A stretch of DNA of 20,479 nt from a virus (IMGVR_UViG_3300010367_000007:1-20479), one strand, 5' to 3'; positions 2,623-17,627 are shown, counted from the first letter of the stretch. A program made the numbers and translations. Notes: generated by a model not told the origin, from the sequence alone.

Positions 2623-2916
2623 ATGACCGATACGATGATCGAGCGCGTTGCGATTGCGTTGGAAAACGAACTGCGCCGACAGCACGAAGGCGAGTATCTC
2701 GTACGCTATTTCCCGCGCGGCCCCGGGTCGGATTGGTTGACGGTCGACGGCAACATTTACGTGACGCCCCTAGTGCGCGCCATCCTCGCCGCGATGCGCG
2801 AGCCGACCGAGGCGATGCTCGACGCCGCCGAGGACAAGGAGTGTCAGAGCCCAAGGGGAACGGCTCGAGCAATGCACCACGCCATGATCGACGCCGCCCT
2901 AACCGACCAGCCGTAA
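2623..2916 (+). CDS. Small hypothetical phage protein
   Basis: A 97-residue protein starts at ATG 2623, with GAGG at 2611-2614 eight bases upstream. An in-frame ATG at 2587 would overlap the terminase gene and has poorer support. It resembles a widespread class of small phage proteins: an N-terminal helix (MIERVAIALENELR), a short beta region with aromatic residues, and a C-terminal segment VRAILAAMREPTEAMLDA followed by MIDAAL. The function of that class is not known to me. The last three codons and stop (Asp-Gln-Pro-stop) lie inside boundary element copy A, so the element supplies the stop codon. Confidence 0.7.
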   Translation: MTDTMIERVAIALENELRRQHEGEYLVRYFPRGPGSDWLTVDGNIYVTPLVRAILAAMREPTEAMLDAAEDKECQSPRGTARAMHHAMIDAALTDQP

Positions 2917-2943
2917 TCATCAACCCACCCGCGCGCGTATCCC
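2905..2943 (+). repeat. Module-boundary element, copy A (before the portal gene)
   Basis: This is the first of four copies of a bipartite element: GACCAGCCGTAATC at 2905-2918, 19 bases, then TATCCC at 2938-2943. The ATG of the portal gene follows seven bases later with no Shine-Dalgarno sequence between. The TAA inside the first half is the stop codon of the preceding gene. Similarity to copy B also covers parts of the spacer (CCACCC and CGTATCCC). The fixed distance of TATCCC to the start codon would suit a promoter making a leaderless mRNA. A recombination boundary is the alternative. Function is inferred. Confidence 0.6.
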
Positions 2944-2950
2944 AGCGCGC

Positions 2951-4921
2951 ATGTCCGGCCGCATCCGACCCGAGAGTGTCCGCCTGAAGGACGCCGGCAA
3001 CGTCGTGCCGATCCGCGACGGGCTCATCAGCATGCTCACCGGCATGGGCACCAGCACCGATCAACGCAGCTACAGCCGCTATTTCGCGCGCGTCATGTCA
3101 GATGTGGAGATCGATCAGGCCTATCGTGGGTCCTGGGTGATGCGGAAAGCAATCGACAAGCCCGCCACCGAGATGGTGCGGGAATGGCGCGACTGGCAGG
3201 CGGACAGCGCCGACATCGAAAAGCTTGAGGCCGAGGAAAAGCGGCTCGACATCCGCAACAAGGTCCGTCGCGCCGAATGCCTGCGTGGGCTCGGTGGAGC
3301 GGGCATGGTCCTGTACGTCGGCGGGTCTGACGCCGAGCAGGCAAACGCGATCGACCCGACCAGGATCAGGGCCGGCGACCTCAAGGCAATCCACGTCTGG
3401 CACCGGTCGCGTTTCGCGCTCGGCCCGATGATCGACACATGGGGCGATCCATGGTTCGGGCACCCGTCCTATTACGAGGTCCAGCTTTCCGGCACGTCTG
3501 GCGGTAAGACGATGCGCTTTCACCCCTCTCGCGTTGTCGCCTTCAAGGGCGAGCCGGTAACCGACATTGCGGGCGTCGACTGGCGTGACGCGCACTGGGG
3601 ACAAGCCAAGGTCCAGACGATCATCGACGCAATCCAGAACGTGGACACCGCGGACACCGGGTTTGCCGCACTGATCAGCCAGGCCAGACTACGGCGCATC
3701 TACATCCCCAAGCTGCTCGACATGCTCAGTCAGCCCGGTGGCGAGGCGAAACTGGCCAAGCGGTTGCAGGCCTTCGCGCTGGGCGAAAGCAACAACTCGG
3801 TATCGTGGCTCGATGGCGGTGACGGTGCGACGGGCGCCGAGAAGATCGACGACAAGCAGGTCACTTGGACCGGCATGCCCGATATCATGGCGGCCTATCG
3901 CACTGCCGCGGCTGCTGCTGCCGACATGCCGGCGACCGTGCTGTGGGGCATCTCGCCGCAGGGCATGAACGCGACCGGCGATAGCGATATCACGCTGTTC
4001 CATAAGACGATCAAGGGCAGGCAGGACCTCGATTTGCGACCGTGCATGACGCAGATCGACGCCGTGTTGGTGCCTTCCGCGCTTGGTCGTGTTGATGACG
4101 GCCTCTGGTACGACTGGGCGCCGCTGTCGACGCAGTCAGAGAAGGACGAAGCGACGACGTTCTTCACCTTCATGCAGGGCGTGGAGAAGCTGCAGGCGAC
4201 CGGCGCGATTCCCGGCGTTGCGTTCGACAAAGCGCTGCAGAACACGCTCGAGGAAAGGTCGTGGTTTCCTGGTCTCGGCGACGCATTGGCCGAGATACCG
4301 GAAGACGAGCGCTTCCCGTCGCTGTCCGAGCCCGATCCGAACGAGCAAGACCCCAACGCCATTCAAGCGGAAGGAGGTGATCAGACCACCGGCGGCAAGG
4401 TAGCCCCACTGCGACGAGCCGCAAACGACACGCGGTTCGTTGATGGCGCGGACCCGAAGACCTTGTACATCGAACGTAAGCTGCTGAACGCGGACGAAGT
4501 GATCCGCTGGGCCAAGTCGCAGGGCTTGGAAACGACGCTCGCACCCGCAGACATGCACGTCACCGTCGCCTATTCGCGGACACCAGTCGATTGGTTTAGC
4601 GTCGGCACGGATTGGGCCGGTGATCAGGACGGCAAGCTGCGGGTCAAACCGGGCGGCGCGCGGACGGTTGAACGTCTCGGTGATGGCGATGCTGTCGCGC
4701 TGCTGTTTGCATCCGATGATCTAAAATGGCGTCACGACCGTATCGCAGAGGCCGGCGCGTCGTGGGATTGGCCCGACTATCGCCCGCACATCACGTTGTC
4801 GTGGAATGCACCCGGCGTCGATGTTGCAGCGATCAAGCCGTATGTCGGGCCGTTGGTGTTTGGACCGGAATTGTTCTCGACAGTGAACGAGGACTGGAAA
4901 TCGGGAGTAACGGAAGAATGA
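2951..4921 (+). CDS. Portal protein with C-terminal Acb1-like anti-CBASS phosphodiesterase domain
   Basis: The 656-residue protein has two parts. Residues about 25-440 are a DUF1073-type phage portal, the dodecameric ring at the capsid vertex through which DNA passes (YRGSWVMRKAIDKPATEM, FHPSRVVAFKG, then ISPQGMNATGDSD). A Pro/Asp/Gln-rich linker spans about 455-495. Residues about 500-656 form a 2H-phosphoesterase with paired HxT motifs, His536-Val-Thr538 and His613-Ile-Thr615. It also has the blocks LYIERKLLNADEVIRWAKSQG and GASWDWPDYRPHITLSW, which I recognise as typical of Acb1, the enzyme that hydrolyses CBASS cyclic nucleotides. The ATG lacks a Shine-Dalgarno sequence and sits seven bases after boundary element A. 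It overlaps the possible early start of the next gene by ATGA. Portal identity is firm. The Acb1 activity is inferred from motifs. Confidence 0.93.
   Translation: MSGRIRPESVRLKDAGNVVPIRDGLISMLTGMGTSTDQRSYSRYFARVMSDVEIDQAYRGSWVMRKAIDKPATEMVREWRDWQADSADIEKLEAEEKRLDIRNKVRRAECLRGLGGAGMVLYVGGSDAEQANAIDPTRIRAGDLKAIHVWHRSRFALGPMIDTWGDPWFGHPSYYEVQLSGTSGGKTMRFHPSRVVAFKGEPVTDIAGVDWRDAHWGQAKVQTIIDAIQNVDTADTGFAALISQARLRRIYIPKLLDMLSQPGGEAKLAKRLQAFALGESNNSVSWLDGGDGATGAEKIDDKQVTWTGMPDIMAAYRTAAAAAADMPATVLWGISPQGMNATGDSDITLFHKTIKGRQDLDLRPCMTQIDAVLVPSALGRVDDGLWYDWAPLSTQSEKDEATTFFTFMQGVEKLQATGAIPGVAFDKALQNTLEERSWFPGLGDALAEIPEDERFPSLSEPDPNEQDPNAIQAEGGDQTTGGKVAPLRRAANDTRFVDGADPKTLYIERKLLNADEVIRWAKSQGLETTLAPADMHVTVAYSRTPVDWFSVGTDWAGDQDGKLRVKPGGARTVERLGDGDAVALLFASDDLKWRHDRIAEAGASWDWPDYRPHITLSWNAPGVDVAAIKPYVGPLVFGPELFSTVNEDWKSGVTEE
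4371..4382 (+). promoter_or_regulatory. Perfect internal Shine-Dalgarno sequence inside the portal-Acb1 linker
   Basis: AAGGAGGTGATC is a 12-base complement to the usual bacterial 16S rRNA 3' end. It lies in codons 474-478, in the linker between the portal and Acb1-like domains. No in-frame ATG, GTG or TTG follows at initiating distance; the nearest TTG is at 4463. It may be a relic of a once separate acb1 gene, a translational pause site that lets domains fold separately, or chance coding of Glu-Gly-Gly-Asp. Confidence 0.45.
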
Positions 4922-4986
4922 GTTGCTTCCATCCGTGGTGCGGCGTCGAGGGCCGCAAATGCATCGATTGCTCACAGGAGAATATC

Positions 4987-5268
4987 ATGCCTACTGTCGA
5001 TAGAGCGCCCGACGCGCGCACCGCCAACAATGCCGTCCGCCACCAGTATCGCGTCCTGAGTGACGCCGAGAAAGCGCAGATGGTCGCCGTGAAGGACAAG
5101 GGCGCCGAGTTCCTTGACCTGATCGACACCCTTCGCACGCCGCCCGAGCCAGCCGGAGAAGTCGATGGCCAGCCGATGGCTATCATGACGTTCGACCGCG
5201 AGTTGCACATCGCGCGCGAGCGTATCGAGGAAGCGGTCATGTGGGCGGTGAAGCACATCACCGCCTGA
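4987..5268 (+). CDS. acb2: Acb2-like cyclic-nucleotide sponge (anti-CBASS/anti-Thoeris)
   Basis: This 93-residue protein matches what I know of the Acb2/Tad1 hairpin family. After a short variable N-terminus come HQYRVLSDAEKAQMVAVKDKGAEF (20-base quote limit aside, residues 19-42) and the C-terminal helix RERIEEAVMWAVKHITA at 77-93. Acb2 proteins form small helical hexamers that bind and sequester CBASS signals such as cGAMP and cyclic trinucleotides. As I recall, phage PaMx33 Acb2 uses Tyr11 and Lys26 in binding. Here Tyr21 and Lys36 keep the same 15-residue spacing. AGGAG at 4976-4980 lies six bases before this ATG. A second possible start, at 4918, overlaps the portal stop by ATGA and would add 23 residues with four cysteines. 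The gene sits between portal and minor head genes. Confidence 0.82.
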   Translation: MPTVDRAPDARTANNAVRHQYRVLSDAEKAQMVAVKDKGAEFLDLIDTLRTPPEPAGEVDGQPMAIMTFDRELHIARERIEEAVMWAVKHITA

Positions 5269-5274
5269 TGCACG

Positions 5275-6132
5275 ATGGCCTCCCAACCTCCGACGACTGA
5301 GCCCGACGAACACCGCAGAGCCGAAGCCGCCGCCCTGATTGCGATCGGGCTGTCCCTCCCCGCCATCATCCGCGCAGCCAAGATAAAGCCGCGCCCGTTC
5401 CGGCAGATCGCGCCAACGGAGGCGCTGCGTTCGTCTATGGCTGCGGTGTTTCTCGACATCGTGAAAGCCTGGCGGGCCGAGCGGCCGGCGATCATGGCGG
5501 CATATGCGGAGGCTCGGGCAACCGGTGATGCCCGCGTTGCCCTGCGCGCTGTCGATGATGCTGCGGCTCGGGTTGCGCCAGTCGTCGCCAGCACCAAGAG
5601 CCGCCTGCCCGACGTCGTGTCGCGCGTAGAGGCATGGCATCGTGGGCAGTGGGTGCGTCGTGTCCAATCCGCGACCGGGCTCAACGTCGCCCATAGCACG
5701 ACGCCGGCCGATGTCCGCGGCGACATCCAGACGACCGTCGATTGGGCATCGCGCCTCGCGGACGATGTCAGCCGCAAGATACAGAACGATATCACGTCGG
5801 GACTGCTCGGCGATCTGGCGGCCAAAAAGCCGGTTGCGGATGCTGGAACGACTGCCAGCGACGTTATCGCCAAGGCCAAGCGTCGATCGCTCGGTATCGG
5901 TGTCGACCAGACTGACAAGCTATCGCGGTCGATGGATCGGTCGCGGCGCAAGGCGGCGGGATTGACGCGGTTCATCTGGCGACACTCTCCGCATGTGCGG
6001 CACCCGAGGCCGGAGCACGTGGCCAGAGACGGGCGCGTGTACAGCGAGGCCAACGCGCCCAACGATAGGGCTGGCGTACTTTTTGGATGTGCCTGTTACG
6101 AGGAACCGATCTGGACTAACGACCAGCCGTAA
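5275..6132 (+). CDS. Minor head protein, phage Mu gpF / SPP1 gp7-like
   Basis: The 285-residue protein belongs by position and C-terminus to the Mu gpF-like minor head proteins (PF04233), which associate with the portal during head assembly and may be ejected with DNA. The family signature is seen late: FIWRHSPHVRHPRPEHV from residue 233 with Trp235, Arg242, His243 and His248, then a Cys272-Ala-Cys274 near the end, matching the usual R-x-x-H and terminal cysteine pattern. Residues about 10-230 are Ala-rich and helical. The start lies six bases after the upstream stop with only a weak ribosome binding site, suggesting coupled translation. The stop lies in boundary element copy B, as Asp-Gln-Pro-stop. 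Confidence 0.82.
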   Translation: MASQPPTTEPDEHRRAEAAALIAIGLSLPAIIRAAKIKPRPFRQIAPTEALRSSMAAVFLDIVKAWRAERPAIMAAYAEARATGDARVALRAVDDAAARVAPVVASTKSRLPDVVSRVEAWHRGQWVRRVQSATGLNVAHSTTPADVRGDIQTTVDWASRLADDVSRKIQNDITSGLLGDLAAKKPVADAGTTASDVIAKAKRRSLGIGVDQTDKLSRSMDRSRRKAAGLTRFIWRHSPHVRHPRPEHVARDGRVYSEANAPNDRAGVLFGCACYEEPIWTNDQP

Positions 6133-6158
6133 TCCCCCGCCACCCCCGATCGTATCCC
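6121..6158 (+). repeat. Module-boundary element, copy B (before the tail tube gene)
   Basis: GACCAGCCGTAATC at 6121-6134 is identical to copy A, followed after 18 bases by TATCCC at 6153-6158. The spacer also shares CCACCC and CGTATCCC with copy A. As in copy A, the TAA serves as stop codon of the preceding gene. Unlike the other copies, a 27-base gap with a proper AGGAG ribosome binding site separates it from the next ATG. A transcript starting just after the element would carry a short leader here. Confidence 0.6.
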
Positions 6159-6185
6159 GCTCCGCAAATTCGCAGGAGTGCACAG

Positions 6186-6920
6186 ATGTCACAGCCCGAC
6201 ACGGTCAAAGGTGGTTATTTCGACGTCGCAGTTGACGTGACCAACCAGGGCGTGACCGATTCCGGCGGCAATTCCCTCAGCGGCTATGTCGTCATCTGCG
6301 GGCTGAACACCCGCAATCTGACCCATCAAGTCAACACCAGCGACGAAGCCGTTCCGAACTGTCAGGACCCCGAAGCGGTGCCGTGGGTGTCGCGCAACGC
6401 GAACAGCCAGGAAAAGAACATGTCGGGCACGGGTTTGCACAATCGCGCGCAGACCAACGTCATTCGTGCGATCTTCGGCAAGACGCTCCCGTATCGCTTC
6501 ATCGAGGGCGAGCCCGGCAACGATCTCGTCAGCCAAGGTTACTGGCAGGGCCCATACCTGTTCAACCAATGGCAGGAGGGCGCGACCGACAAGCAGAACG
6601 TGACGTCGCAGTTCTCGTGGCAGAGCGATGGTGAGGTCGACTGGGTTTCGACCACCTCACCCACGCTGGCCACGCTGACCGCGACCCCGCTGACCGGCAC
6701 TGCCGCGACGCCGTGGTCCGGCGTGATTTCAGGCCGCACCGCCGGCTCGACGATCAGCGTCGTCGCAACCGGCGCCACTGCCGTAAGCTTCGACGATGCG
6801 ACCAACACGATCCATGCCACCTGGGCGACGTCCGGCAGCAAGACCGTGAAGGTCAACGAAACGAACGCCGAGGCCAACAATTCTCCGCACCTGACGACGC
6901 TCACCGTCGTCATCTCGTAA
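6186..6920 (+). CDS. Major tail tube protein with C-terminal Ig-like domain
   Basis: This 244-residue protein would polymerise into the non-contractile tail tube. Residues 1-155 have the beta-rich character of siphophage tube proteins, with NMSGTGLHNRAQTNVIRAIF, a segment GYWQGPYLFNQW and the terminal SWQSDGEVDWVS typical of the fold. Residues about 160-244 look like an added Ig-like domain (TATPLTGTAATPWSGVISGR through SKTVKVNETNAE), a common surface decoration on tail tubes. AGGAG at 6174-6178 is seven bases before the ATG. The following chaperone and tape measure genes confirm the tail assignment. The location before the capsid protease gene is unusual. Confidence 0.82.
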   Translation: MSQPDTVKGGYFDVAVDVTNQGVTDSGGNSLSGYVVICGLNTRNLTHQVNTSDEAVPNCQDPEAVPWVSRNANSQEKNMSGTGLHNRAQTNVIRAIFGKTLPYRFIEGEPGNDLVSQGYWQGPYLFNQWQEGATDKQNVTSQFSWQSDGEVDWVSTTSPTLATLTATPLTGTAATPWSGVISGRTAGSTISVVATGATAVSFDDATNTIHATWATSGSKTVKVNETNAEANNSPHLTTLTVVIS

Positions 6921-6924
6921 TCCC

Positions 6925-7368
6925 GTGCAGACGTGGCTTGATCTCAAGTTTGCGGACGGCGCCTACACCTTCAAGCTCGGCCTCGCGCAGATTGTCGAGA
7001 TCGAGCAGAAGTGTGGTGCCGGCATCGGCGCGATCTATGCCCGCACGCTGAAAGGCCGCTACGGTTTCGACGAAGGCGATATCTACCCCGAGCTTGCGGA
7101 ATATCGGTTTCCGGAATTGATTGAGGTCATCCGCCAAGGTCTGATCGGCGGCGCATCCGGCGAGGTTGATGGTAGCCCGGTATCGGTCTCGTCCGTGCGC
7201 GCCGGTGACCTCATCGATCGGTATGTTCTAAACATCAGCGACCAGCGCCTGCGCCTGACACAGGTCTGGATGCTCGCCTATGCGATTCTCGCCGCACTGA
7301 TCGAAGGCTACACGCCGCCAAAAAAAGACGAGCCGGGGACAAGCCCGGCGACCGAAACGAGCGGATAG
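6925..7368 (+). CDS. Tail assembly chaperone, short (unshifted) form, GTA gp10-like
   Basis: The 147-residue product starts at GTG 6925, four bases after the tube gene stop. It resembles the gene-transfer-agent gp10-type tail assembly chaperones: LKFADGAYTFKLGLAQIVEIEQ, GIGAIYARTL, then VIRQGLIGG and a C-terminal helix AYAILAALIEGY. Such proteins coat the tape measure protein while the tube assembles and, like lambda gpG, are made with a minor frameshifted extension. The A-run at 7320-7326 near the 3' end is a matching slippery site. Its C-terminal tail after the slip site is a short Pro/Thr-rich segment, as expected for the default product. Confidence 0.82.
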   Translation: MQTWLDLKFADGAYTFKLGLAQIVEIEQKCGAGIGAIYARTLKGRYGFDEGDIYPELAEYRFPELIEVIRQGLIGGASGEVDGSPVSVSSVRAGDLIDRYVLNISDQRLRLTQVWMLAYAILAALIEGYTPPKKDEPGTSPATETSG

Positions 7369-7580
7369 ACTGGGCGGGCGTTCTCACGAATTGCGCCATG
7401 ATGGGTGTGTCGTTGTCCGATGCCCGCGCGCTGACATGGTGGGAGTATCAAGGCATGCTCTGGACCTGGAACGATCGCCACTCGACGGAACAGGAACCGG
7501 TTGAGGCACCTGAAGCTGCGTTCGTCGAGCGCCGGCAACAGCGATTGGCTGATCGCGGCATCGCAAGGACTATTCACTGA
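6925..7580 (+). CDS. Tail assembly chaperone, predicted -1 frameshift fusion (lambda gpG-T analogue)
   Basis: A -1 slip on the seven adenines at 7320-7326 would move ribosomes from frame 1 into the frame of the downstream ORF. That frame is open with no stop from the slip site to the TGA at 7578-7580. The predicted fusion has 134 residues from the first frame and 84 from the second, 218 in total. The extension contains RIDWAGVLTNCAMMGVSLSD and WWEYQGMLWTW, resembling the T-domains that bind the tape measure protein. Frame, slip sequence and hairpin are directly visible. That the shift happens is inferred from the general rule for long-tailed phages. Confidence 0.75.
7320..7349 (+). other. Programmed -1 ribosomal frameshift signal
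   Basis: The heptamer A-AAA-AAA at 7320-7326 has the zero-frame Lys codons at 7321-7326, so both tRNAs can re-pair after a -1 slip. Five bases later comes a hairpin: GCCGGG at 7332-7337 pairs with CCCGGC at 7344-7349 around a six-base loop. Spacer and stem fit a stimulatory element. The shifted frame leads into the second chaperone ORF. Confidence 0.78.
7398..7580 (+). CDS. Downstream tail chaperone ORF (T-domain), probably made only by frameshift
   Basis: The 60 residues from ATG 7398 form the distal part of the frameshift fusion and would be called as a separate gene by standard methods. No convincing ribosome binding site precedes 7398. The frame is open further upstream through the slip site, which argues that independent initiation is not the normal route. 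The Trp-rich segment LTWWEYQGMLWTWNDRHS resembles tail-chaperone T-domains, and the C-terminus is a charged helix (FVERRQQRLADRG). The stop overlaps the tape measure ATG as TGATG. Confidence 0.65.
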   Translation: MMGVSLSDARALTWWEYQGMLWTWNDRHSTEQEPVEAPEAAFVERRQQRLADRGIARTIH

Positions 7581-10500
7581 TGGCTGAGGTTGTCGACGCG
7601 ATCGTTGCGGACCTCATCGTTCGCAATCTCGATAAGTATGAGGCGGATTTCGCGCGTGCCACGTCGGCACATGAGAAGTTCTCTCGCTCGACCGACAAGC
7701 TGAAGGCGCAGACGTTCGATCTCGGCGCCGAGGGGCAGAAGTATAAGGCGGGCGCCAATGCAATCGGTGCCGCAGAGGAAGGCCTGACCCAGCGCGTCAC
7801 CCGCACCCGCAAGGCGCGCGCTGATACTGCCGTTGCCCAATCGAACCGCGAGACGGCAGCGGTAAAGAAGGCGGCCAAGGAGCAGGCCGACGCCGCGATT
7901 GCCGAAGCGCAGCGCGAGGCGGCTGAGACGCGGCGCATCCGGGAGATGGTCGCTCGGTCCGTTGCATCAGGTGGTGTGAAGCCGGGATCGCGCGGATCGA
8001 CTGGCCGCCTGCCGAACACGTCGGTGCCAGGAGAGCGCACAGGGCAACGCTCCATTCCGCTGTCGGCGCTCGGCGCAGACTCGTCGGCGGACGTTGCCGC
8101 AGAAGCTGAAATAAATCGGCTACTGGTGGACCAAATCAAGTATCGTGATGCGAGAACCTACGCCAATGCTGCCGATAAGCGGATAATCGACGAAAAGCTT
8201 GGCGCAATGCGGCTTGAGCAGCAGCTATTGAGGCAGGGCGTTTCCGAGCAAGAGATTATGAACACGCTTGAGCAGCGTGCTCTAGCGATAGAGGTTGAGC
8301 GGGCGGCCGTCGCCCGCGGCAAGGGTAGAGGCGCCTTCGCCAAGGATGCCGAGCAGTTCGCGCGTGGTGGCGGACTATTTGCCGCAACGGGTGGGGCGGC
8401 AGCGATTGCAGGTATCGGGGTGGTCGGTGCCGTATCGGCGACGATATCTGGCATGGTCCGAGCCACAGAGGTCGGCCTCGAATACGCGAAGTCGATCAAA
8501 CAGGTCAGTGATCAGCTCGGCATATCGGCGCACGATCTCCAAATCTGGGAGGTCGCGGCCGGCCAAGTTGGCGCCACAACAGAGCAGTTGCGCGAGGGCT
8601 TCAGTCAACTCGGGTCGAACATCGGCAAGGCCCAGGAGGGGGCGCAGGAACAAGGTAAGATATTCAAGGGCCTGAAGATCGACCTCGGGAATGCCAAGGA
8701 CGGCTATAAGTCGCTCAACGACATCTTGCCGGTCTTCATGGACAAGCTGTCCAAAATTCCCGACCAGGCGCGCCGCATGGCTCTGGAAACCGCACTCGGC
8801 GGCGAGCAGTTGCGCAAACTGGACCCGATCCTGTCGAAAGGGTCGGGATCATTCGATGAACTAACGAAATCGATCGATGCGACTGGCACCGTGCTTAGTA
8901 ACGCGGAGATTCAGCGCGCTGACCAGACGGCCATGAAGCTGAAGATGATCGGCGATCAACTCCAGCGGCAGTTGACGGGCGTTGTAGCGTCTAATTCCGA
9001 GGCGATCGATCAGTTGGCGGCATCTTTTGGGCGCCTCGCCACGAAAGCGATTGAGGCCATCGCGGCCTTGCAGCGCTTCGGCGCGAACAAGGTCCTCGAC
9101 AGCGATATGGCTAGTCCGGAGGACCGTCGCGCGGCCCAAGATCTGTTGAAATCGACCCCAGATGGCAGGAACGCCCTACGCGTCCGATATGCCCAAGCAT
9201 CGAACACGATCGGCAATATGGCCCGCGATCCCAACACGGTCGTCAACCTCCGGGGGTTTGGTCGTGTGGAGAATACGCCGAAAGGGCGTGCCGCCGCGAT
9301 GCAGTTCCTCGGCAGGGAGACTCTGGCGATTGACAAAGCCGACGCCGCCCCACCGCCGGCAGCTAGCGGACCCGATCTCAGCAAGTTGTTCGCGCCCAAG
9401 GGTCCGAAAGGCCCCAAGGACAAGACCAACGAACGCGAAAAGCGTTTCATCGATGAGATGAACCGCCTACGGGACGAGCAGCTGCGGGCGCAGGAAGACC
9501 AGACGCAGGACGAGCACGACAGACTAGATCTCAAGAAGAAGCAGTTGGATGCCGATACCCAACGCCAACGTGACGATATTGAGCTGCAGGTCAAAGAGAA
9601 GCAGCTCACGCGAGAGCAGGCCGATGCGCTGGAGAAGCAACTCAAGCTCACCTACAATGAACAATTGAACGTCATTAAGCGAGACGACACGCTCGAAGCA
9701 CTCAAGCGCAGCTACGATACCACCGTGGCGATCATCGATGCCAAGGAAGAGGAGCTTCGCAATCAGGAGGTGTTGGCTAAAACGGTCGCCGAGCGGGCGG
9801 CGCTGGAAAAGCAGATCCTCGAAATAGAGCGCCAGAAGGAGACTCTCGGCGCCAACTACACGATCGAACGCGCTGCGGAGGGAGACACGTCTGTCTCGAC
9901 TAGCGACGTGAATAACGCAAAGCGGACGTTGAAGACCGCGGATCAGCGTCAACGCGAAGGCGAGGCTGTCATCGACGCGCAGAACCGCGGTCCGCTGGGC
10001 GACTATCTGGCTAGACTTCCTTCGTCCGTGAAGCAGATCGACGAAGCGCTTCAACAGGCTGCGGCTAACGGGTTGCAAAACCTTGACGACGGCCTGACCA
10101 GCGCGGTTGCCAAATTCCTACATCTCCACGGCCTGGCGGGACAGTTCCTTCAGGATTTGATTAAGATCGGCATCGAGCGCGAATTGTTGATCCCGTTGGC
10201 GAACACGCTGTTTCCGCAACAGGGCGCGAGTGCGGGCCTAGGCGGCAGTGGTGGCGGTTTCTTCGGCTCGATCCTGTCGGGGATCGGTCATCTGTTCGGA
10301 GGAGGTGGTGGTGGCCTCGGGGGTATCAACGGCACCGGCGTTCTTATGGACATGCCAGGCTTCGCAACCGGCGTTTCTGGCGTGTTCGGCGGCCGGCATG
10401 GCACCGACAACAATATCCTCTCGCTCAATGGCCAGCCGTTCGCGCGGGTCAATCGTGGCGAACCGTTCGCGATCGGGCCGAATATCGGGGCGGCGAATGG

Positions 10501-10702
10501 GCGAGTGAATGGGCCGTCGAACGCCATGATCCTGCACCAGACCGTCAACATCGATGCATCCGGCGTGAATCCTGAGGGTTACACCAAGGGCATTCTTGGC
10601 ATCGTCCAGCGTGAGACGGCGGCGGCTATCCAGCAAGGCAATCGCCAAGTGCTCGATGCGGTGCCAGGGACGCTGTCGCGGACGCAGACGCTCAAGAGCT
10701 AG
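7580..10702 (+). CDS. Tail tape measure protein
   Basis: At 1040 residues this is the longest gene. It sets tail length and helps DNA pass into the host. It shows the family layout: a charged coiled-coil N-terminus (about 30-150), a hydrophobic Gly/Ala-rich stretch at about 263-292 (LFAATGGAAAIAGIGVVGAV) and then the tape-measure-like block SIKQVSDQLGISAHDLQIWE. Next are long Glu/Lys/Gln coiled coils at about 610-770, a Gly-rich hydrophobic region from about 884, and a C-terminal helical tail. By the usual rule of about 0.15 nm per residue the tail would be around 150 nm. The start overlaps the chaperone stop as TGATG. The gene ends just before boundary element copy C. Confidence 0.92.
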   Translation: MAEVVDAIVADLIVRNLDKYEADFARATSAHEKFSRSTDKLKAQTFDLGAEGQKYKAGANAIGAAEEGLTQRVTRTRKARADTAVAQSNRETAAVKKAAKEQADAAIAEAQREAAETRRIREMVARSVASGGVKPGSRGSTGRLPNTSVPGERTGQRSIPLSALGADSSADVAAEAEINRLLVDQIKYRDARTYANAADKRIIDEKLGAMRLEQQLLRQGVSEQEIMNTLEQRALAIEVERAAVARGKGRGAFAKDAEQFARGGGLFAATGGAAAIAGIGVVGAVSATISGMVRATEVGLEYAKSIKQVSDQLGISAHDLQIWEVAAGQVGATTEQLREGFSQLGSNIGKAQEGAQEQGKIFKGLKIDLGNAKDGYKSLNDILPVFMDKLSKIPDQARRMALETALGGEQLRKLDPILSKGSGSFDELTKSIDATGTVLSNAEIQRADQTAMKLKMIGDQLQRQLTGVVASNSEAIDQLAASFGRLATKAIEAIAALQRFGANKVLDSDMASPEDRRAAQDLLKSTPDGRNALRVRYAQASNTIGNMARDPNTVVNLRGFGRVENTPKGRAAAMQFLGRETLAIDKADAAPPPAASGPDLSKLFAPKGPKGPKDKTNEREKRFIDEMNRLRDEQLRAQEDQTQDEHDRLDLKKKQLDADTQRQRDDIELQVKEKQLTREQADALEKQLKLTYNEQLNVIKRDDTLEALKRSYDTTVAIIDAKEEELRNQEVLAKTVAERAALEKQILEIERQKETLGANYTIERAAEGDTSVSTSDVNNAKRTLKTADQRQREGEAVIDAQNRGPLGDYLARLPSSVKQIDEALQQAAANGLQNLDDGLTSAVAKFLHLHGLAGQFLQDLIKIGIERELLIPLANTLFPQQGASAGLGGSGGGFFGSILSGIGHLFGGGGGGLGGINGTGVLMDMPGFATGVSGVFGGRHGTDNNILSLNGQPFARVNRGEPFAIGPNIGAANGRVNGPSNAMILHQTVNIDASGVNPEGYTKGILGIVQRETAAAIQQGNRQVLDAVPGTLSRTQTLKS

Positions 10703-10710
10703 CCCATTCC

Positions 10711-10749
10711 GACCAGCCGTAATAGGTTGTCGTCACACCATCTAATTCC
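10711..10749 (+). repeat. Module-boundary element, copy C (before the protease-scaffold gene)
   Basis: GACCAGCCGTAAT at 10711-10723 is identical to copies A and B. Nineteen bases after position 14 comes AATTCC at 10744-10749, a variant of TATYCC at the same offset as in copy A. The ATG at 10757 follows seven bases later with no Shine-Dalgarno sequence, exactly as at the portal gene. Here the first half is wholly non-coding, because the tape measure stop lies upstream at 10700-10702. Conservation is therefore not explained by a shared protein C-terminus. Confidence 0.58.
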
Positions 10750-10756
10750 GCGTGCC

Positions 10757-11875
10757 ATGTTCACGGACGCGCTCATCATGGACAAGACGTGGGAGGTCCC
10801 GGGTGGATTTCTCGGCTTTTCCGCGCGTTTCGCCCGCACCGGCGTGCAGATGTACGACGGATCGGAGATCGACCCGGACGGCATTTACAAAGACGCTGCC
10901 GGTGATCGTAAGTTCAAGCCGGGCACGCTGTACCCGGTCGATCGTCCAGCCGAGGAAGTGTTCAAGCCGTCCGCTATGGCGAGCTTCATCGCCAAGCCGC
11001 TGACGAATGACCACCCCGCCGATGGTGTGACGATCGACGATTGGAACGCCAAGACCAAAGGCGTGATCGGCGAAGTTCTCCGCGATGGCGAGTTCGCCCG
11101 CCTGTCCGGCTTGATGACCGACAAAGGACTGATCGCCGACTATCGCGCCGGCAAGAAAGACCTCTCCGGGGGCTATGAGGCCAACCTCGTTGTTCGCGAT
11201 GGCGTCAACCCGGCTGGCGAAAGCTACGTCGCCCAGCAAACGAACATCGACGGCAATCATGTTGCATTCGTGAAGCACGGCCGCGCCGGCAACACCCGCG
11301 TGACAGACGCCGCTCCCTGCTCACCTGCCCCTCAATCCTTCCTCTACAGCCTGCAAACGGAGAAGCCCGTGAAGACCATGCTCATCGACGGGCTCACCGT
11401 CGACGTGTCCAACGCCGATACGGCGATTGCGACGATCAACACCATCCTGGCCGCGCGCGATGCTGCGAATGGCAAGGTGGCCGGCCTCGAAACGCAGGTC
11501 GCCACGCTCACGACCGACAAGGCGACGCTTGAAGCCGAAAAGGTCACGCTGACGCAGCAACTCGCCGATGCGTCGAGCCCCGCCAAACTGCGCGATGCCG
11601 CCAAGGCCTATTCGAACATCGCCGACAAGGCGAAGGCGCTCGGCATCACCGTCACCGACGCGATGGGGCAGACCGAGATCACCAAGGCGGTGGTCGATGC
11701 CAAGATCGATGCCACGCTCCGCGAAGGCTGGACCGATGAGCAATACGCCGCGTCGTTCGCCTCGCTGACCAAGGACGTGAAGGCCACCGACGCGCGCCCG
11801 GGCATCTCCGGTTCGCCGATCGTCGCCAATGACACCAAGAGCGTCCGCGATCTCGCGCGCGCCTCGCGCTACTGA
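10757..11875 (+). CDS. Prohead protease-scaffold fusion (DUF2213)
   Basis: This 372-residue protein matches the DUF2213 family, in which a head maturation protease is joined to a scaffold. Residues about 1-180 form the protease part: GGFLGFSARFARTGVQMYDG, then LTNDHPADG, DLSGGYEANL and NIDGNHVAFVKHGRAG. His86 and Ser137 are candidate catalytic residues, with spacing close to the His/Ser pair I recall from HK97 gp4; this is an inference. Residues about 200-370 are an Ala/Thr/Lys coiled coil typical of scaffolds. I chose ATG 10757 because it aligns with the portal start relative to the boundary element. A TTG at 10727 is possible. An internal start at 11369 may yield scaffold alone. Confidence 0.82.
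   Translation: MFTDALIMDKTWEVPGGFLGFSARFARTGVQMYDGSEIDPDGIYKDAAGDRKFKPGTLYPVDRPAEEVFKPSAMASFIAKPLTNDHPADGVTIDDWNAKTKGVIGEVLRDGEFARLSGLMTDKGLIADYRAGKKDLSGGYEANLVVRDGVNPAGESYVAQQTNIDGNHVAFVKHGRAGNTRVTDAAPCSPAPQSFLYSLQTEKPVKTMLIDGLTVDVSNADTAIATINTILAARDAANGKVAGLETQVATLTTDKATLEAEKVTLTQQLADASSPAKLRDAAKAYSNIADKAKALGITVTDAMGQTEITKAVVDAKIDATLREGWTDEQYAASFASLTKDVKATDARPGISGSPIVANDTKSVRDLARASRY
11369..11875 (+). CDS. Possible nested scaffold protein from an internal GTG start
   Basis: Within the protease-scaffold gene, GTG 11369 is in frame and preceded by GGAGA at 11359-11363 with a five-base gap. It falls at the boundary between the protease domain and the coiled-coil domain. The 168-residue product would begin with Met-Lys-Thr-Met-Leu-Ile-Asp-Gly-Leu, an ordinary-looking protein N-terminus, and would contain the whole scaffold region. 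This arrangement is known from lambda C/Nu3. Only the start signal and position support it here. Confidence 0.35.
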   Translation: MKTMLIDGLTVDVSNADTAIATINTILAARDAANGKVAGLETQVATLTTDKATLEAEKVTLTQQLADASSPAKLRDAAKAYSNIADKAKALGITVTDAMGQTEITKAVVDAKIDATLREGWTDEQYAASFASLTKDVKATDARPGISGSPIVANDTKSVRDLARASRY

Positions 11876-11889
11876 CGGGAGCCTGAGCA

Positions 11890-12357
11890 ATGCCTGTTCT
11901 TCAGACCAACTTCACCGAAACAGTCGCGATCGGCTATGACGGCATGGTCGCGGATGGTGAAACGTCCAATCGCATCACCCGCACGTGCGAGGACGCCGGC
12001 GGTATCCCGTTCGGCGCCCCGGTCTATCGTGGTTCCGGCGATCATGGCTGCACCGCCACGGTCGGCACTGCGGCTACGTTCCTGGGCTGGGCGATTGCGG
12101 TCGCGGGTCAGCCGGCAATCGCCGGTCTCGCCGCAGACACCTATGCCCAATACGACAACGTCCCGATCCTCACGAGCGGTGCAATGATTAAGTCCGTGAA
12201 GGGCGCCGTCACCGATGGTGCGCCGCTCACGGTCGGCACTGGCGGTGGTGCCGCGGATTTGGTCGGCGCGACCGCTGCGGACGCGACGCACATCGCGACC
12301 GGCTGGATCGCCGACATCACTGTTACCGACGGCCTGTGCCGCATCGTCAAGCGCTGA
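11890..12357 (+). CDS. Capsid cement/decoration protein
   Basis: The 155-residue beta-rich protein has a GGGAG ribosome binding site at 11877-11881. It resembles the small cement proteins encoded between scaffold and capsid genes in DUF2184-type phages: an N-terminal MPVLQTNFTETVAIGYDGM, a GIPFGAPVYRGSGDHGC block, and a C-terminal beta hairpin rich in Gly, Ala and Thr. These trimerise on the capsid surface and stabilise the expanded head. The assignment rests on position and general character. No catalytic motif or membrane segment is visible. Confidence 0.72.
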   Translation: MPVLQTNFTETVAIGYDGMVADGETSNRITRTCEDAGGIPFGAPVYRGSGDHGCTATVGTAATFLGWAIAVAGQPAIAGLAADTYAQYDNVPILTSGAMIKSVKGAVTDGAPLTVGTGGGAADLVGATAADATHIATGWIADITVTDGLCRIVKR

Positions 12358-12370
12358 GGGGGCGACTGAA

Positions 12371-13468
12371 ATGAACGCAATCACGAATTTCTACGATCGC
12401 GCCTCTGGCCAGATAACGGACGCCGCCGCCTTCATGGTGGCGGACGCCGCGACGAAGAAGCATGTCATCAGCCTGTGGGCTACGGACAATGCGCGTCACG
12501 CCGCCAGCTTCGCCGACAAGGTCGACTCGTTCCTGAGCGATGCGCAGGTTGGTTACGCCTTCCTGACGCCGCAGCTCTACCGGATCGAGACCGAAGTCTA
12601 CATGATCAAGTACCCGAGCTTCGACATCGGGCGCTATTTCCCGGTCGATAGCTCGGGCGACATGTGGGACGTTGGCACGCTCGTCTATTCGATGGACAAG
12701 GTCGGCGAGGCCGCGTTCTTCTCCGGCGCGTCGTTCGACATGCCCTATGCGTCGAGCAAGATGGCGCAGGCCACCCGCAACTTCCACCTGGCCGGCATCG
12801 GCTACGAATGGAACACGCAGGAATTGCAGCGCTCGGCCAAGCTCGGTCGCGCGCTGTCGTCGGACAAGGCCGCTGCGGCCGACATGGTGTCGCAGAAGTT
12901 CATCTACGGCATCGGCATGACGGGCAAGAACCCGGCGGGCGTGTCGGAGAAGGGCTGGACCGGCTTCACCAACGACGCGAACGTTCCTGCGGTGCAGGTT
13001 GCCGCGGACGGCACGAGCTCGTCGCGGACTTGGCCGGCGAAGACCCCCGAACTGATTCTGCGCGACGTCAACGCCGCCATCAATGCGGTCGAGACGAACA
13101 GCGGAGAGGTCTTCGTGGCCGATACGCTGGTCCTGCCGACCACGGCGTACAACTACATCGCCAATACGATGATCGGCACCAGCGGGTCAAACTCGATCCT
13201 GGCGTTCTTGCAAGCCAACAACACGGCCGGCGACAGCCTGACGATCATGAAGAGCCGCGCACTCGAAACCGCAGGAACCGGATCGAGCCGCCGCATGGTC
13301 GCCTATTCGAAGAACCCGCAGGTGATGAAGTTCATGCTTCCCGGGCCGCACCAGTTCCTGCCGCCGTTCCAGAAGGCGAGCATGGTCTACGAGGTCGGCG
13401 GGATCATGAACGTCGGCGGTCTCGATGTCCGCGTGCCCAAGGGCATGGCTTACTACGACTCGTTCTGA
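12371..13468 (+). CDS. Major capsid protein (DUF2184 type, HK97 fold)
   Basis: The 365-residue protein is the shell subunit. It has the DUF2184 pattern: an N-terminal arm (residues 1-60), FLTPQLYRIETEVYMIKYPS leading to the E-loop-like region near 70-120, NFHLAGIGYEWNTQELQRSA and a spine helix after 140. Near the end come an LVLPTTAYNYIANT segment and LPPFQKASMVYEVGGIMNVG. GAGGGGG at 12356-12362 is eight bases upstream of the ATG, a strong ribosome binding site that suits a highly expressed gene. Cement upstream and a small accessory gene downstream complete the capsid block. Confidence 0.9.
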   Translation: MNAITNFYDRASGQITDAAAFMVADAATKKHVISLWATDNARHAASFADKVDSFLSDAQVGYAFLTPQLYRIETEVYMIKYPSFDIGRYFPVDSSGDMWDVGTLVYSMDKVGEAAFFSGASFDMPYASSKMAQATRNFHLAGIGYEWNTQELQRSAKLGRALSSDKAAAADMVSQKFIYGIGMTGKNPAGVSEKGWTGFTNDANVPAVQVAADGTSSSRTWPAKTPELILRDVNAAINAVETNSGEVFVADTLVLPTTAYNYIANTMIGTSGSNSILAFLQANNTAGDSLTIMKSRALETAGTGSSRRMVAYSKNPQVMKFMLPGPHQFLPPFQKASMVYEVGGIMNVGGLDVRVPKGMAYYDSF

Positions 13469-13478
13469 GGAAAGCGAC

Positions 13479-13670: not shown

Positions 13671-13688
13671 CCCATTCGTCGCGGGGAT

Positions 13689-13722
13689 AAGGGCCGCTCC
13701 GCTTCGTGTGGGGCGGCCCTTT
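13689..13722 (+). terminator. Rho-independent terminator-like hairpin after the capsid block
   Basis: AAGGGCCGCTCC (13689-13700) pairs with GGGGCGGCCCTT (13710-13721) around a nine-base loop, with one G-U pair. Only three Ts follow, so termination would be partial. It sits 16 bases before the next ATG and could lower expression of downstream genes relative to the capsid protein. Confidence 0.62.
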
Positions 13723-13738
13723 GCATAGGGAAACTGAG

Positions 13739-14146: not shown

Positions 14147-14171
14147 TCCTCACGCGGGCGGGAGATAGCCC

Positions 14172-15620
14172 GTGACCACCGTCTCGTATCAGATCACATC
14201 GAGCGTCAACGACGTCAGTTACGTCACTGGTTCCGGGCTCGACGACACCGGTGTTGCTGCCGGCAATGCCTTGGGCTCGACGATTTACGCCGGGCTTCGT
14301 TTCACCGCCGTGGCCGTGCCAAAGAGCGCGACGATTTCATCCGCGACTCTGTCCCTTGTCGTCGGCGGATCACTCGGGCCAGCAACAGGCTCGTCACTCG
14401 GCACGCTGAAGGGCGTCGCGTCGGACAATGCGCCCGCGTGGACAACGACGGGGCCGAATACCGGGATCCGCACGACTGCATCGACTGCCATTTTGGGTAG
14501 CACGACGGCGGAAACGACGGTCAACCACAACGTCGCATCGATCGTCCAAGAGATCGTCAACCGCGCTGGCTGGGTTTCAGGCAACGCCCTGGCGTTCGCT
14601 GGCGACCCGACCGGCGCGGCAAACTATTGCTCCTATCACGACGTAGCCGACGCCCCGGCCAAGGCGGCAACGCTGTCGATCACGTACACGACTGGCAGCG
14701 GTATCACTGGGTCGGCTTCCATGACAGAAGCCGGCGATACGGTGTCGTCAGGCGGCACCATCAAGGTCAGTGGGGCGCTCGCGAAGACTGAAGCCGCTGA
14801 CGGCGTTGCAGCAGCCGCCACCCTGCGCCTGAGCGCAGCCGTAGTGGTTGCTGAAGCCGATGACGGCCTGGCATCTGGCGGCGCGCTCAGAGTTACCGGC
14901 CAGTCGTCGCCGACTGAGGGCGATGATAGCCTATCGTCGGCAGGAACGCTTGTCGCGGCACCGATTACGGGCGCCGTTTCCGCTACAGAAGACGGCGACA
15001 TCGTCTCGGCGGCGGGTTCAGTGCGCTTGGCGGCGTTCATGTCCGCGCCCGAGGCGGACGACAGCATATCCGGGACTGCCACGGTTCGTGTGGCCGGATC
15101 ATCGGCACTGGCGGAAGCGAACGATGCCACCATCTCGACCGGAGCGTTGCGGATATCGGCTGCCACCGCCGCCAGCGAAGCCGATGATACGGTGGCCAGT
15201 GATGTGGCGCTCCACATCGCCGGCAATGCTAGCATTGGCGAACAGGACGATTCGGCGTCGGCAATATCATCCACAGCGATCCACGGATCACTTTCTGCGC
15301 AAGAGGCGGCGGACAGTGTCTCGGCGTCCGGCACATCGACACTGGTGCCAATCACCGGCTCGGTAGCTATCGTGGAGAACGGCGACAGCAGCGTTGGATC
15401 GGCGCGGCTCGTCATCTCCGCGCTCGTCGCCTGCAATGACAATGCCGACAGTGTGGAGGCACATGGGCTCGCTCGCGTGCCGATGACGCCGACAGCAACC
15501 CGCTCAGTATCTTCGCCGAAGGTCGATCGTACAGCGGCCGAACTAGCCGTAATGCGCGTGGCGTCATCGGCCGTAAAACCGCGCACCGTGTCCAGTGTTC
15601 GATCGAGAAGGGCTGTCTGA
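14172..15620 (+). CDS. Long repeat protein with N-terminal jelly-roll-like domain (putative head fibre or decoration)
   Basis: The 482-residue protein starts at GTG 14172 with GGGAGA at 14160-14165. Residues 1-175 look like a DNRLRE/carbohydrate-binding-type beta sandwich (GLRFTAVAVPKSATISSATL, NHNVASIVQEIVNRAGW). Residues about 180-437 are twelve imperfect repeats of 21-24 residues. Each has a small residue-rich strand, an acidic Glu-Ala-Asp-Asp or similar turn, a Val/Ser stretch and a GTLRV-like strand. The C-terminal 45 residues are basic. Repeats of this kind would build an elongated beta rod, suiting a fibre on the head or neck. The acidic turns might bind metal ions. No enzyme motif is visible. 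Confidence 0.72.
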   Translation: MTTVSYQITSSVNDVSYVTGSGLDDTGVAAGNALGSTIYAGLRFTAVAVPKSATISSATLSLVVGGSLGPATGSSLGTLKGVASDNAPAWTTTGPNTGIRTTASTAILGSTTAETTVNHNVASIVQEIVNRAGWVSGNALAFAGDPTGAANYCSYHDVADAPAKAATLSITYTTGSGITGSASMTEAGDTVSSGGTIKVSGALAKTEAADGVAAAATLRLSAAVVVAEADDGLASGGALRVTGQSSPTEGDDSLSSAGTLVAAPITGAVSATEDGDIVSAAGSVRLAAFMSAPEADDSISGTATVRVAGSSALAEANDATISTGALRISAATAASEADDTVASDVALHIAGNASIGEQDDSASAISSTAIHGSLSAQEAADSVSASGTSTLVPITGSVAIVENGDSSVGSARLVISALVACNDNADSVEAHGLARVPMTPTATRSVSSPKVDRTAAELAVMRVASSAVKPRTVSSVRSRRAV

Positions 15621-16348
15621 TGTCGCTCACCTGGCCGGCAAAGCATCCCGCCGAAGTCGCTGATTATACGTGGTCGCCAGGGCTCGACGCCGGCGACACG
15701 ATTTCGACCGCGTCAATCAATGTCACCGAAGGCACGGTATCGGCCACCGCGCGCGCACCACAGACCGGGGATACGGCACTCGTCGCGGATGTGTCCGGCG
15801 GCACGGCAGGCGAAACCAACGTTCTGTACGCGATCGTGACAACAACGGGCGGCCGCACGTTCGATGAGACGATCTATCTCTCCATCAACGCGTTAGTCGC
15901 GATTGACCCGAACGTCGCCGCGCTCAAGATGCGCTATCCCGCATTCGCCGCGGTCGATGACGCGACGGTCGCCTATTGGCTGGCCGACGCCAAGCGGTTC
16001 GTCGATGTATCGTGGAACGATGGGGACTACGCGCCGGGCCTTATCGCGGCGGCGGCTCACAATATGTCCAAGACTGGCGTTGCAGGCATTTCCGGCTCCC
16101 AGCTTGGTGGATTCGCCGCTGCTGGCGTTACCCGGTTCAAGTCGGGAACCTTTGACGCGCAATTCAGCGATGTGGCGATCAAGGTTGCGGTGGCGGGCGG
16201 CTGGGCATCGACGCCATACGGGCAAGATTATCTCGACCTGTTGCGGCGCAATGTGAGCGGGTTTGGCGTGACTTCGCCCGGCACTGTTGTGGTCGGTTGC
16301 GGCTTCAACGGGTTCGCTGGGCCGCTGTCGCCTTGGACTTATCCGTGA
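15620..16348 (+). CDS. Head-tail connector (DUF4054) fused to an N-terminal Ig-like domain
   Basis: The 242-residue protein starts at an ATG overlapping the previous stop (TGATG). Residues about 1-92 are a beta-rich domain of the type found in phage fibre-adaptor proteins (HPAEVADYTWSPGLDAGDTI through GRTFDETIYLSI). Residues about 93-220 match DUF4054 head-tail connectors: MRYPAFAAVDDATVAYWLAD, LIAAAAHNMSKTG, FKSGTFDAQFS and a STPYGQDYLDLLRR helix. The connector would sit under the portal as an adaptor ring. The Ig-like part may hold the adjacent repeat protein on the neck. The fusion is seen directly; that tethering role is inferred. Confidence 0.8.
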   Translation: MSLTWPAKHPAEVADYTWSPGLDAGDTISTASINVTEGTVSATARAPQTGDTALVADVSGGTAGETNVLYAIVTTTGGRTFDETIYLSINALVAIDPNVAALKMRYPAFAAVDDATVAYWLADAKRFVDVSWNDGDYAPGLIAAAAHNMSKTGVAGISGSQLGGFAAAGVTRFKSGTFDAQFSDVAIKVAVAGGWASTPYGQDYLDLLRRNVSGFGVTSPGTVVVGCGFNGFAGPLSPWTYP

Positions 16349-16740
16349 ACCTCCCGGATGCATTCCTCGGCCTGGCACAGATGGCGTCTACAGCTTTTGG
16401 CGCGCCTTTCTATGCCGGTGCGATCATCTCGCAAGCAACGCCCGGCGGCTATGACGACAATGGCGTATTCCATTCCGGATTGCCGCCAGCGGAAACGCCA
16501 TGCACGGTCCAGATCGACGCGATCGACGAACGCGCGCGGCCACAGGGTTGGTCGGACAAGGACTATCGATTCATCATCCTGGCGAGCGGATTGCCTGCCG
16601 GTTTGCGCTTAGACACCGACGCCAGCGTGAAGGTCACGGACGCGAAGGCGCCGGACGACTTCCGCGCACAATGGCTTGTCAGTTCGCTACAGCGCGATCC
16701 GGCGGGCATAGGCTGGGTCGGCAAGGGACAACTGGCGTGA
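16345..16740 (+). CDS. Putative head-closure protein
   Basis: This 131-residue protein starts at GTG 16345, overlapping the connector stop as GTGA. It directly follows the DUF4054 connector and precedes an HK97 gp10-like gene, the usual slot for the head-closure (stopper) protein that retains packaged DNA. The sequence is mixed alpha/beta, with an N-terminal helix (PDAFLGLAQMAS), a beta segment TPCTVQIDAIDERARP and a C-terminal region that may bind neighbouring rings. The family was not recognised with certainty, so the call rests on synteny. Confidence 0.65.
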   Translation: MNLPDAFLGLAQMASTAFGAPFYAGAIISQATPGGYDDNGVFHSGLPPAETPCTVQIDAIDERARPQGWSDKDYRFIILASGLPAGLRLDTDASVKVTDAKAPDDFRAQWLVSSLQRDPAGIGWVGKGQLA

Positions 16741-17150
16741 TCCGCTTCACCGACAATCATGGCGACCGGCTCAAGCGCCTGGCGCTGCATCGCCTTACGC
16801 CCGGCCTCGGCGAGGTGTTGCTGGAGAACGCGCAGACGATCGTCGATTTCGCGCGCGTCAATATCAATGACGGCTCGGTGTCCGGTCCGGGTCACGTTCC
16901 CGGCCCCGTCGGCGGATACCCGAACTCCGATACGCATGAACTCGAGCAATCGCTTCACGTCGGCGAATTGATCGAAACAGGCTCAGAGATAAAGACCAGC
17001 GCCATCGCCGACGCGCCACACGCCATCTACGTCGAGCGCGGAACGAGCAATGCTGGTCCACGGCCATATATTGAGCCGTCCACCGAGGAAGTACGCCCGC
17101 ATGTGCTTGCCGGGCTAGCGTCGGCATTCCGCAAGGTGGTCAACGACTGA
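16737..17150 (+). CDS. Neck/tail-joining protein, HK97 gp10-like
   Basis: The 137-residue protein starts at GTG 16737, overlapping the upstream stop by GTGA. It shows the HK97 gp10-like pattern: an N-terminal helix (LTPGLGEVLLENAQTIVDFA), a GPGHVPGPVGGYPNSDT region that often appears as PG-rich turns, then AIYVERGTSNAGPRPYIEP, the most conserved part of the family, and a final helix. Such proteins form or attach at the head-tail interface. The neighbouring tail-terminator gene supports the call. Confidence 0.8.
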   Translation: MIRFTDNHGDRLKRLALHRLTPGLGEVLLENAQTIVDFARVNINDGSVSGPGHVPGPVGGYPNSDTHELEQSLHVGELIETGSEIKTSAIADAPHAIYVERGTSNAGPRPYIEPSTEEVRPHVLAGLASAFRKVVND

Positions 17151-17590
17151 TGCCGGTATCCACTCTCAAGACTCGCGCCGCGGTCATGGCCGCGCTGAAA
17201 GCCAGCGACGCGGTTACGGCGCTCATCCAGAAGCCGTCACTATATCCAGGCACGGTTCCGGCGACCAAGACCTTTCCGTTTGGCCGCTTCGGCACAATGA
17301 TCGCATCGCCATTCGCCGCATCCGGCCTGCGATCGTCGGCCTATCGCATTTCGGTCCAAGGCTTCAGCAAAGACATCGTGGACGGCAGCGGGACCGTGAT
17401 CGTGCCAGCGGAGGATAACGCGACTGCAATCGGCGATGCATTCCAGGCCGCGCTTGATGGAGCCACGATCGATCTCGGCAACGGCGACAAGCTGCGGCTG
17501 GAATGGATCCAGTCCATGCCGACGCAAGACCCGTCGGAAGCATCGGCGTGGATGGTGACGACGACGTTCACCGGTGAGGTGTCGGGCTAA
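17150..17590 (+). CDS. Tail terminator / tail completion protein (DUF3168-like)
   Basis: The 146-residue protein starts at an ATG overlapping the upstream stop (TGATG). It fits the DUF3168 tail terminators: a helix at the N-terminus (LKTRAAVMAALKASDAV), a YPGTVPATKTFPFGRFG turn, AYRISVQGFSK as a core strand, a helix AIGDAFQAALDGAT, and a last strand (AWMVTTTFTGEVSG). Tail terminators form a hexameric ring that ends tube growth and joins the head. In most phages the tail tube gene would come next. Here boundary element copy D follows instead. Confidence 0.8.
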   Translation: MPVSTLKTRAAVMAALKASDAVTALIQKPSLYPGTVPATKTFPFGRFGTMIASPFAASGLRSSAYRISVQGFSKDIVDGSGTVIVPAEDNATAIGDAFQAALDGATIDLGNGDKLRLEWIQSMPTQDPSEASAWMVTTTFTGEVSG

Positions 17591-17627
17591 TCAGCCGTAA
17601 TCCTGAGCGTCGTCGCGTGCCTATTCC
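17589..17627 (+). repeat. Module-boundary element, copy D (before the tail-tip genes)
   Basis: CAGCCGTAATC at 17592-17602 matches the other copies, but the first three bases differ (AAT instead of GAC). TATTCC lies at 17622-17627 with the same 19-base spacing as copies A and C. GTG 17634 follows six bases later without a Shine-Dalgarno sequence. The upstream gene stops at the edge of the element. It marks where a tail tube-chaperone-tape measure cassette would normally lie. Confidence 0.57.

Follow-up and report, generated by a model that had tools for sequence, protein, structure and literature searches.

Four copies of a bipartite signal on the forward strand of a phage genome fragment are, very probably, the late promoters of its virion-block genes. 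The window, i.e., the whole stretch of DNA analysed here, is the entire 20,479-base IMG/VR record IMGVR_UViG_3300010367_000007. Each site consists of a box (GACCAGCCGTAATC or a close form), 18–19 bases, a −10-like hexamer, and then a gene start. The first-pass annotation had placed the copies at 2905, 6121, 10711, and 17589 (below, sites A, B, C, and D), and there we re-located them exactly. Three of them share an identical stretch, as had been noted, although its length is 14 bases rather than 13 (CGACCAGCCGTAAT at 2904, 6120, and 10710); the box of site D has two mismatches to GACCAGCCGTAATC. The second halves, previously written as TATYCC or AATTCC, are indeed TATCCC at sites A and B and TATTCC at site D, but the hexamer of site C is TAATTC, AATTCC being out of register by one base.

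The joint pattern CAGCCGTAAT-N18..20-TA[AT][CT] occurs four times in the window and never in 1000 dinucleotide shuffles. A 14-mer occurring three times was not seen in any of 200 shuffles, and GACCAGCCGTAATC with at most three mismatches has 9 matches in the window vs. 1.97 expected (sd 1.27). The original description of the element is confirmed, and its occurrence is well above chance. Partial matches elsewhere had been said to lack the second half, and this is the case for a looser match at 15541, which is intragenic. A trivial explanation by protein-coding repeats is ruled out. The boxes of sites A and B overlap the stop codon of the upstream ORF, site C lies outside all genes, as had been pointed out, and the first bases of site D are the last ones of the upstream stop codon; since site C is wholly non-coding, site D starts where its neighbor ends, and the four neighbors differ, protein similarity does not account for the element.

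Downstream of each copy is the gene that opens a virion block, in agreement with the proposed block boundaries. At site A, the box GACCAGCCGTAATC (2905–2918) and the −10-like element TATCCC (2938–2943; fitting the TANCNT profile described below and flanked by GCGCGC arms at 2931–2936 and 2945–2950) stand before the portal gene (2951–4921; Pfam Phage_portal_3, E 6.8e-86). Site B, with a box found by sequence match (6121–6134) and a −10-like TATCCC placed by the position profile (6153–6158), precedes the tail tube gene (6186–6920; Pfam Phage_tail_2, E 3.9e-5; PHROG major tail protein). At site C, the box (10711–10724) and the −10-like TAATTC (10743–10748, by sequence match) are followed by the gene of the head maturation protease, or DUF2213 protein, that heads the capsid block (10757–11875; Pfam DUF2213, E 2.1e-39; PHROG head maturation protease, E 1e-58); its start at ATG 10757 is our assignment, while the mechanical ORF list opens at TTG 10727. 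A related phage (L121, i.e., G001) has TTTAATTCCGCGTCCCATG before the homologue of this gene. Finally, the site D box AATCAGCCGTAATC (17589–17602, by sequence match) and the −10-like TATTCC (17622–17627, by the position profile) precede the distal tail protein gene (17634–18299; PHROG tail protein, E 1.9e-34), whose GTG start is common to the window, G001, and G002. A feature absent from the first-pass annotation is the constant spacing between site and downstream start codon (ATG 2951 at site A, ATG 10757 at site C, and GTG 17634 at site D), so that the portal, protease, and distal tail genes are predicted to be leaderless; at site B, a predicted start at A6166 is followed by a 20-base leader with AGGAG and then by ATG 6186.

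Some genes of these blocks deserve mention in their own right. The portal protein is fused to a C-terminal anti-CBASS Acb1 domain (residues 503–651; Pfam E 2.9e-43), and the next ORF (4918–5268) matches the Acb2/Tad1 hairpin domain (E 8.7e-17); hence, the late operon behind site A contains two anti-CBASS-type genes. In Synechococcus phage Yong-M3-232, the region equivalent to the portal-fused Acb1 is annotated as a separate ORF. A 482-aa ORF at 14172–15620, with internal repeats of the form EA/ED-GD...S..G, is without homologues among the 16 relatives.

With the portal protein as the query, 80 viral loci were recruited, and 16 related contigs were fetched. The element likewise precedes the portal gene in the nearest portal relatives (L119–L123), where the box stands in the same place as at site A; in other relatives its spelling has diverged. 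We found neither many intragenic matches nor a lack of conservation: in 17 related phages, with selection by the box alone, there are 75 matches on the late-coding strand, before the same gene families, and two on the opposite one, although the strand bias is descriptive only, because the box pattern was built after inspection of the same genomes. The −10 and start-codon signals were outside the selection, though many sites had been seen beforehand. A −10-like motif TANCNT occupies these unselected positions at offsets 23–28, with frequencies of 0.68 (T), 0.84 (A), 0.67 (C), and 0.59 (T) at offsets 23, 24, 26, and 28, respectively. The dinucleotide TA is present at offset 23–24 in 51 of the 75 sites and at any other offset in at most 6, and A is enriched at offsets 35–36 after the box. 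A start codon of an ORF of at least 100 codons lies 34–37 bases after the box in 43/75 sites, vs. 2.7 at random positions (sd 1.5). The same −10 and start-codon picture is seen for 64 non-redundant sites. Contigs recruited via a candidate regulator, R1 (see below), rather than via the portal protein contain 22 forward sites and no reverse ones; the phages are related, and the portal-recruited set already includes a few of these contigs. At the level of sequence, these comparisons establish the box, the −10 motif, their fixed spacing, the strand bias, the gene specificity, and conservation with lineage-specific spelling.

The geometry is specific to the downstream gene. Homologous sites are predicted to yield leaderless genes for the portal (13/13), the protease (11/11), and the distal tail protein (8/8), and leadered ones, with a leader of about 20 bases, for the tail tube (11/11). 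Leadered and leaderless genes have a common predicted start position, 7–8 bases past the −10 element, at a purine.

Diverged spellings of the box with the same geometry include CCGTCCGTAG, ACGACGGTAA, GACGGAGGTAA, and GACGGCGGCAA. The AGCC/CGCC-GTAATC spelling is found in the window, G001–G003, and G005, and GGCG-GTAA in most genomes. Other variants are GGAG-GTAA (G014), GGCG-GCAA (G006), GTCC-GTAG (L130, L143, L147, L148, L153, L159), and GACG-GTAA (L149, L144). Phage Yong-M3-232 (L382, OM868076) has GCGGCGGGAA before the portal, the protease, and apparently the small terminase genes, with GGCGGGAA as the upstream part; given the relatives of this phage here and the GTA-like genes, its recorded host is worth checking. 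In class II, a leading TGA is present in 45/53 sites and closes an ORF of 60 or more codons in only 19; being common yet seldom ORF-closing, it seems to be part of the box.

We also scanned larger collections. Among 2.9 million viral contigs, TGACGGCGGTAA-N19..21-TANC has the gene-start geometry in 76 of the 139 matches listed (54 leaderless and 22 leadered with a Shine-Dalgarno-like sequence), compared with 1 of the 118 matches listed for a scrambled pattern of equal composition (0 leaderless, 1 leadered); both scans include chance matches and some positive contigs were already in hand, the result being the contrast in geometry. The loose pattern CAGCCGTAAT-N-TATYCC yielded mostly background in the viral collection, and the window's own spelling had the gene-start geometry in 1/113 matches there; this spelling class is rare in the collection. 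In named bacterial genomes, the class-II pattern gave mostly chance matches in unrelated phyla. A link to sphingomonads is unsupported: in 199 of their genomes, no exact match was obtained for the class-II pattern combined with a start codon, hence this pattern is no common sphingomonad feature, and R1 was found in none of 298. A search for R1 in 385 genomes of the class gave one match, which has no portal, R2, or box in its vicinity.

The late-promoter reading can be formulated as follows. The second half, TANCNT, would serve as the −10 element in a sigma-70-type promoter; the hexamer is related to TATAAT and is situated about 7 bases before a purine start. Relative to the predicted transcription start, the first half would span about −46 to −33, as at site A, i.e., the place of a −35 element. 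No −35 hexamer TTGACA is seen about 17 bases upstream, where the bases are the 3′-terminal ones of the box (GTAA...). A box near −40 is shared by several sites on the late strand, as in activator-dependent late promoters of phages. On balance, the box probably binds an activator, most likely a phage-encoded one that would recruit the host RNA polymerase; phage origin is probable because the geometry is constant across lineages that differ in the box. Transcription would begin about 7–8 bases past the −10 element, and we infer that RNA starts at the predicted positions. At sites A, C, and D, the start would coincide with the first base of the start codon or fall within one base of it, resulting in leaderless mRNA, while at site B it would fall at AAA and leave a 20-base leader with a Shine-Dalgarno sequence. 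Most virion mRNAs are thus predicted to be leaderless, with at least four late transcription units, one for each virion block.

Two DNA-binding candidates, R1 and R2, are encoded upstream of the terminase. The R1 gene (23–574, forward strand) encodes a protein whose AlphaFold model (pLDDT 80.9) resembles a ParB/Noc-type DNA-binding fold; the top Foldseek matches are to ParB/Noc (6y93, TMt 0.75, prob 1.00), a likeness that is suggestive only, as the best E is 0.1. Pfam HTH_ParB matches 2/12 members with E 0.024 at best, and weak profile matches of R1 to cryptochromes/photolyases were treated as spurious. R2 (571–780, forward strand) is a small protein with a helix-turn-helix predicted from sequence (four helices, pLDDT 78.8) with no relatives of note in Pfam, PHROG, or PDB. 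R1 is present in 14 of the 16 genomes reaching this region, window included, and R2 in all 16 by a profile seeded from 8 of them, so that its presence is partly built in. In portal-related phages without R1 and R2 (L154–L198 except L159), the box is absent save for one match in L157. A scan with the box only found R1 in 7/60 and R2 in 11/60 positive stretches, and neither in 60 negatives or 120 controls. Three box-bearing genomes lack R1 (G009, G014, and L149), and R2 varies widely among phages sharing one box. With box spellings assigned by hand, the best correlate of box distance is portal distance (Mantel r 0.71), and partial Mantel tests controlled for the portal leave r −0.07 for R1 and −0.07 for R2, i.e., neither explains box divergence and their covariation with the box is lost once phylogeny is controlled. 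As box distance tracks the portal best and nothing is left for R1 or R2, the association could reflect kinship within one related phage group. That the activator is R1 or R2 is a tentative suggestion, with the balance somewhat against it.

Stems spanning the predicted start are longer than in shuffled sequences (mean 4.41 vs. 3.69, sd 0.11; three stem definitions were looked at), and those of 7 or more bp occur at 7 sites vs. a shuffled mean of 0.7. Stems wholly downstream of the start are not longer than in shuffles. The clearest case is site B, where a hairpin in the read-through RNA (6158–6180; arms 6158–6165 and 6172–6180, with the loop from the predicted start 6166) would cover AGGAG at 6174–6178; the predicted folding energy is −12.0 kcal/mol for the read-through RNA and −4.4 for an RNA begun within the site, and AGGAG is covered only in the former. 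The GCGCGC arms of site A surround the −10 element, whereas no obvious stems are seen at sites C and D and stems are absent at several sites. Such hairpins may silence read-through RNA, which is a secondary and weaker claim. Its full form is unlikely, namely, that the promoters double as translation switches, with transcription starting within or just past a hairpin by which the start codon or the Shine-Dalgarno sequence would be masked in read-through RNA, so that virion proteins would be made only from late-promoter RNAs, mostly leaderless, under a ParB/Noc-fold activator.

The stems bring up an explanation at the RNA level, in which the element acts in a read-through transcript as a boxA/hairpin (nut-like) antitermination site or as a translation-initiation element. 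The bipartite layout, the stem-loops in many sites, their excess across the start, and the frequent overlap of the box with the upstream stop codon are what one would expect of such a signal. It seems very unlikely nonetheless, as the stems are neither universal nor conserved in sequence, the second half fits a sigma-70 −10 element both in sequence and in its 7–8-base distance to a purine, leadered and leaderless genes have a common start position, and a fixed distance to the start codon is unexpected for nut-like sites.

Another possibility is that the boxes are repressor operators, or stoperator-like silent sites, over ordinary promoters, keeping late genes off in a prophage. The box does overlap the −35 position, and some relatives are probably temperate, e.g., Yong-M3-232, which carries R1 and has an annotated integrase and cI. 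We consider this very unlikely: no consensus −35 element is left for unaided use of the promoter, nearly all boxes lie within the late region, and, unlike stoperators, they are nearly confined to the late-coding strand, with a single orientation and a single distance to the −10 element.

The block order varies among these phages. The tail tube precedes the protease/capsid block in the window, G001, and G002 and follows it in G009 and others, and every block keeps its own promoter copy; under the late-promoter reading, the promoter would move along with its block when the gene order changes. While retained copies and 14 identical bases in three of them might also suggest linker sequences for recombinational exchange of virion blocks, with the pre-gene position a by-product, this is most improbable, as homology of that kind should extend over longer identical stretches and keep no fixed register with start codons, and the spelling shifts by lineage while the spacing and the −10 element persist. 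In the window (6186–13468), the tail tube and a probable tape measure protein of 1040 aa are situated between head morphogenesis and protease/capsid genes, as in G001 and G002 and unlike G009.

As a sequence rule, the element can be used to locate late transcription units and true start codons across a large group of phages, most of them uncultured. If leaderless initiation is true, the synthesis of abundant virion proteins would do without a Shine-Dalgarno sequence, and the leadered tail tube gene would offer a natural comparison. Lineage-specific boxes with constant geometry would represent promoter-activator pairs for orthogonality tests. No description of this element was found in the open-access literature; a prior account elsewhere is possible.

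Activator-dependent late or middle phage promoters are known from P2 Ogr/P4 Delta, Mu C, and T4 MotA. In these, as is proposed here, the −35 element gives way to a phage-specific box, the −10 element is still of the sigma-70 type, and late operons are fired from several copies. The present box sequences differ from those of these systems, no relationship was found for the candidates R1 and R2, the activator is putative, and at most target genes the predicted start falls on the start codon. In T4 gene e-type control, the ribosome site of read-through RNA is hidden by a hairpin and becomes free when transcription starts inside or after the first arm; here, only part of the sites have a hairpin, which is predicted, and a stem covering the Shine-Dalgarno sequence is seen at site B.

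The SAS and ESAS of cluster K mycobacteriophages are likewise repeated asymmetric signals just 5′ of phage gene starts, conserved and with subcluster-specific upstream parts; SAS (GGGATAGGAGCCC) lies directly at the start and is linked to translation, whereas ESAS is a 17-bp inverted repeat (PMC3203893). The present element has a −10 element and no inverted repeat in its box, and the sequences at the four window sites differ from the SAS/ESAS definition (PMC3203893). Dedicated regulators at promoters of virion-like clusters are also represented by GafA and GafY-GafZ, which control gene transfer agents in α-Proteobacteria, GafZ binding a palindrome between −10 and −35; the Caulobacter cluster has one promoter and antitermination (PMC9638019, PMC11150451), whereas several promoters are predicted here. 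DUF6456, the annotation of GafA homologues, has no Pfam match at E up to 1 in R1 and R2, the two proteins covered.
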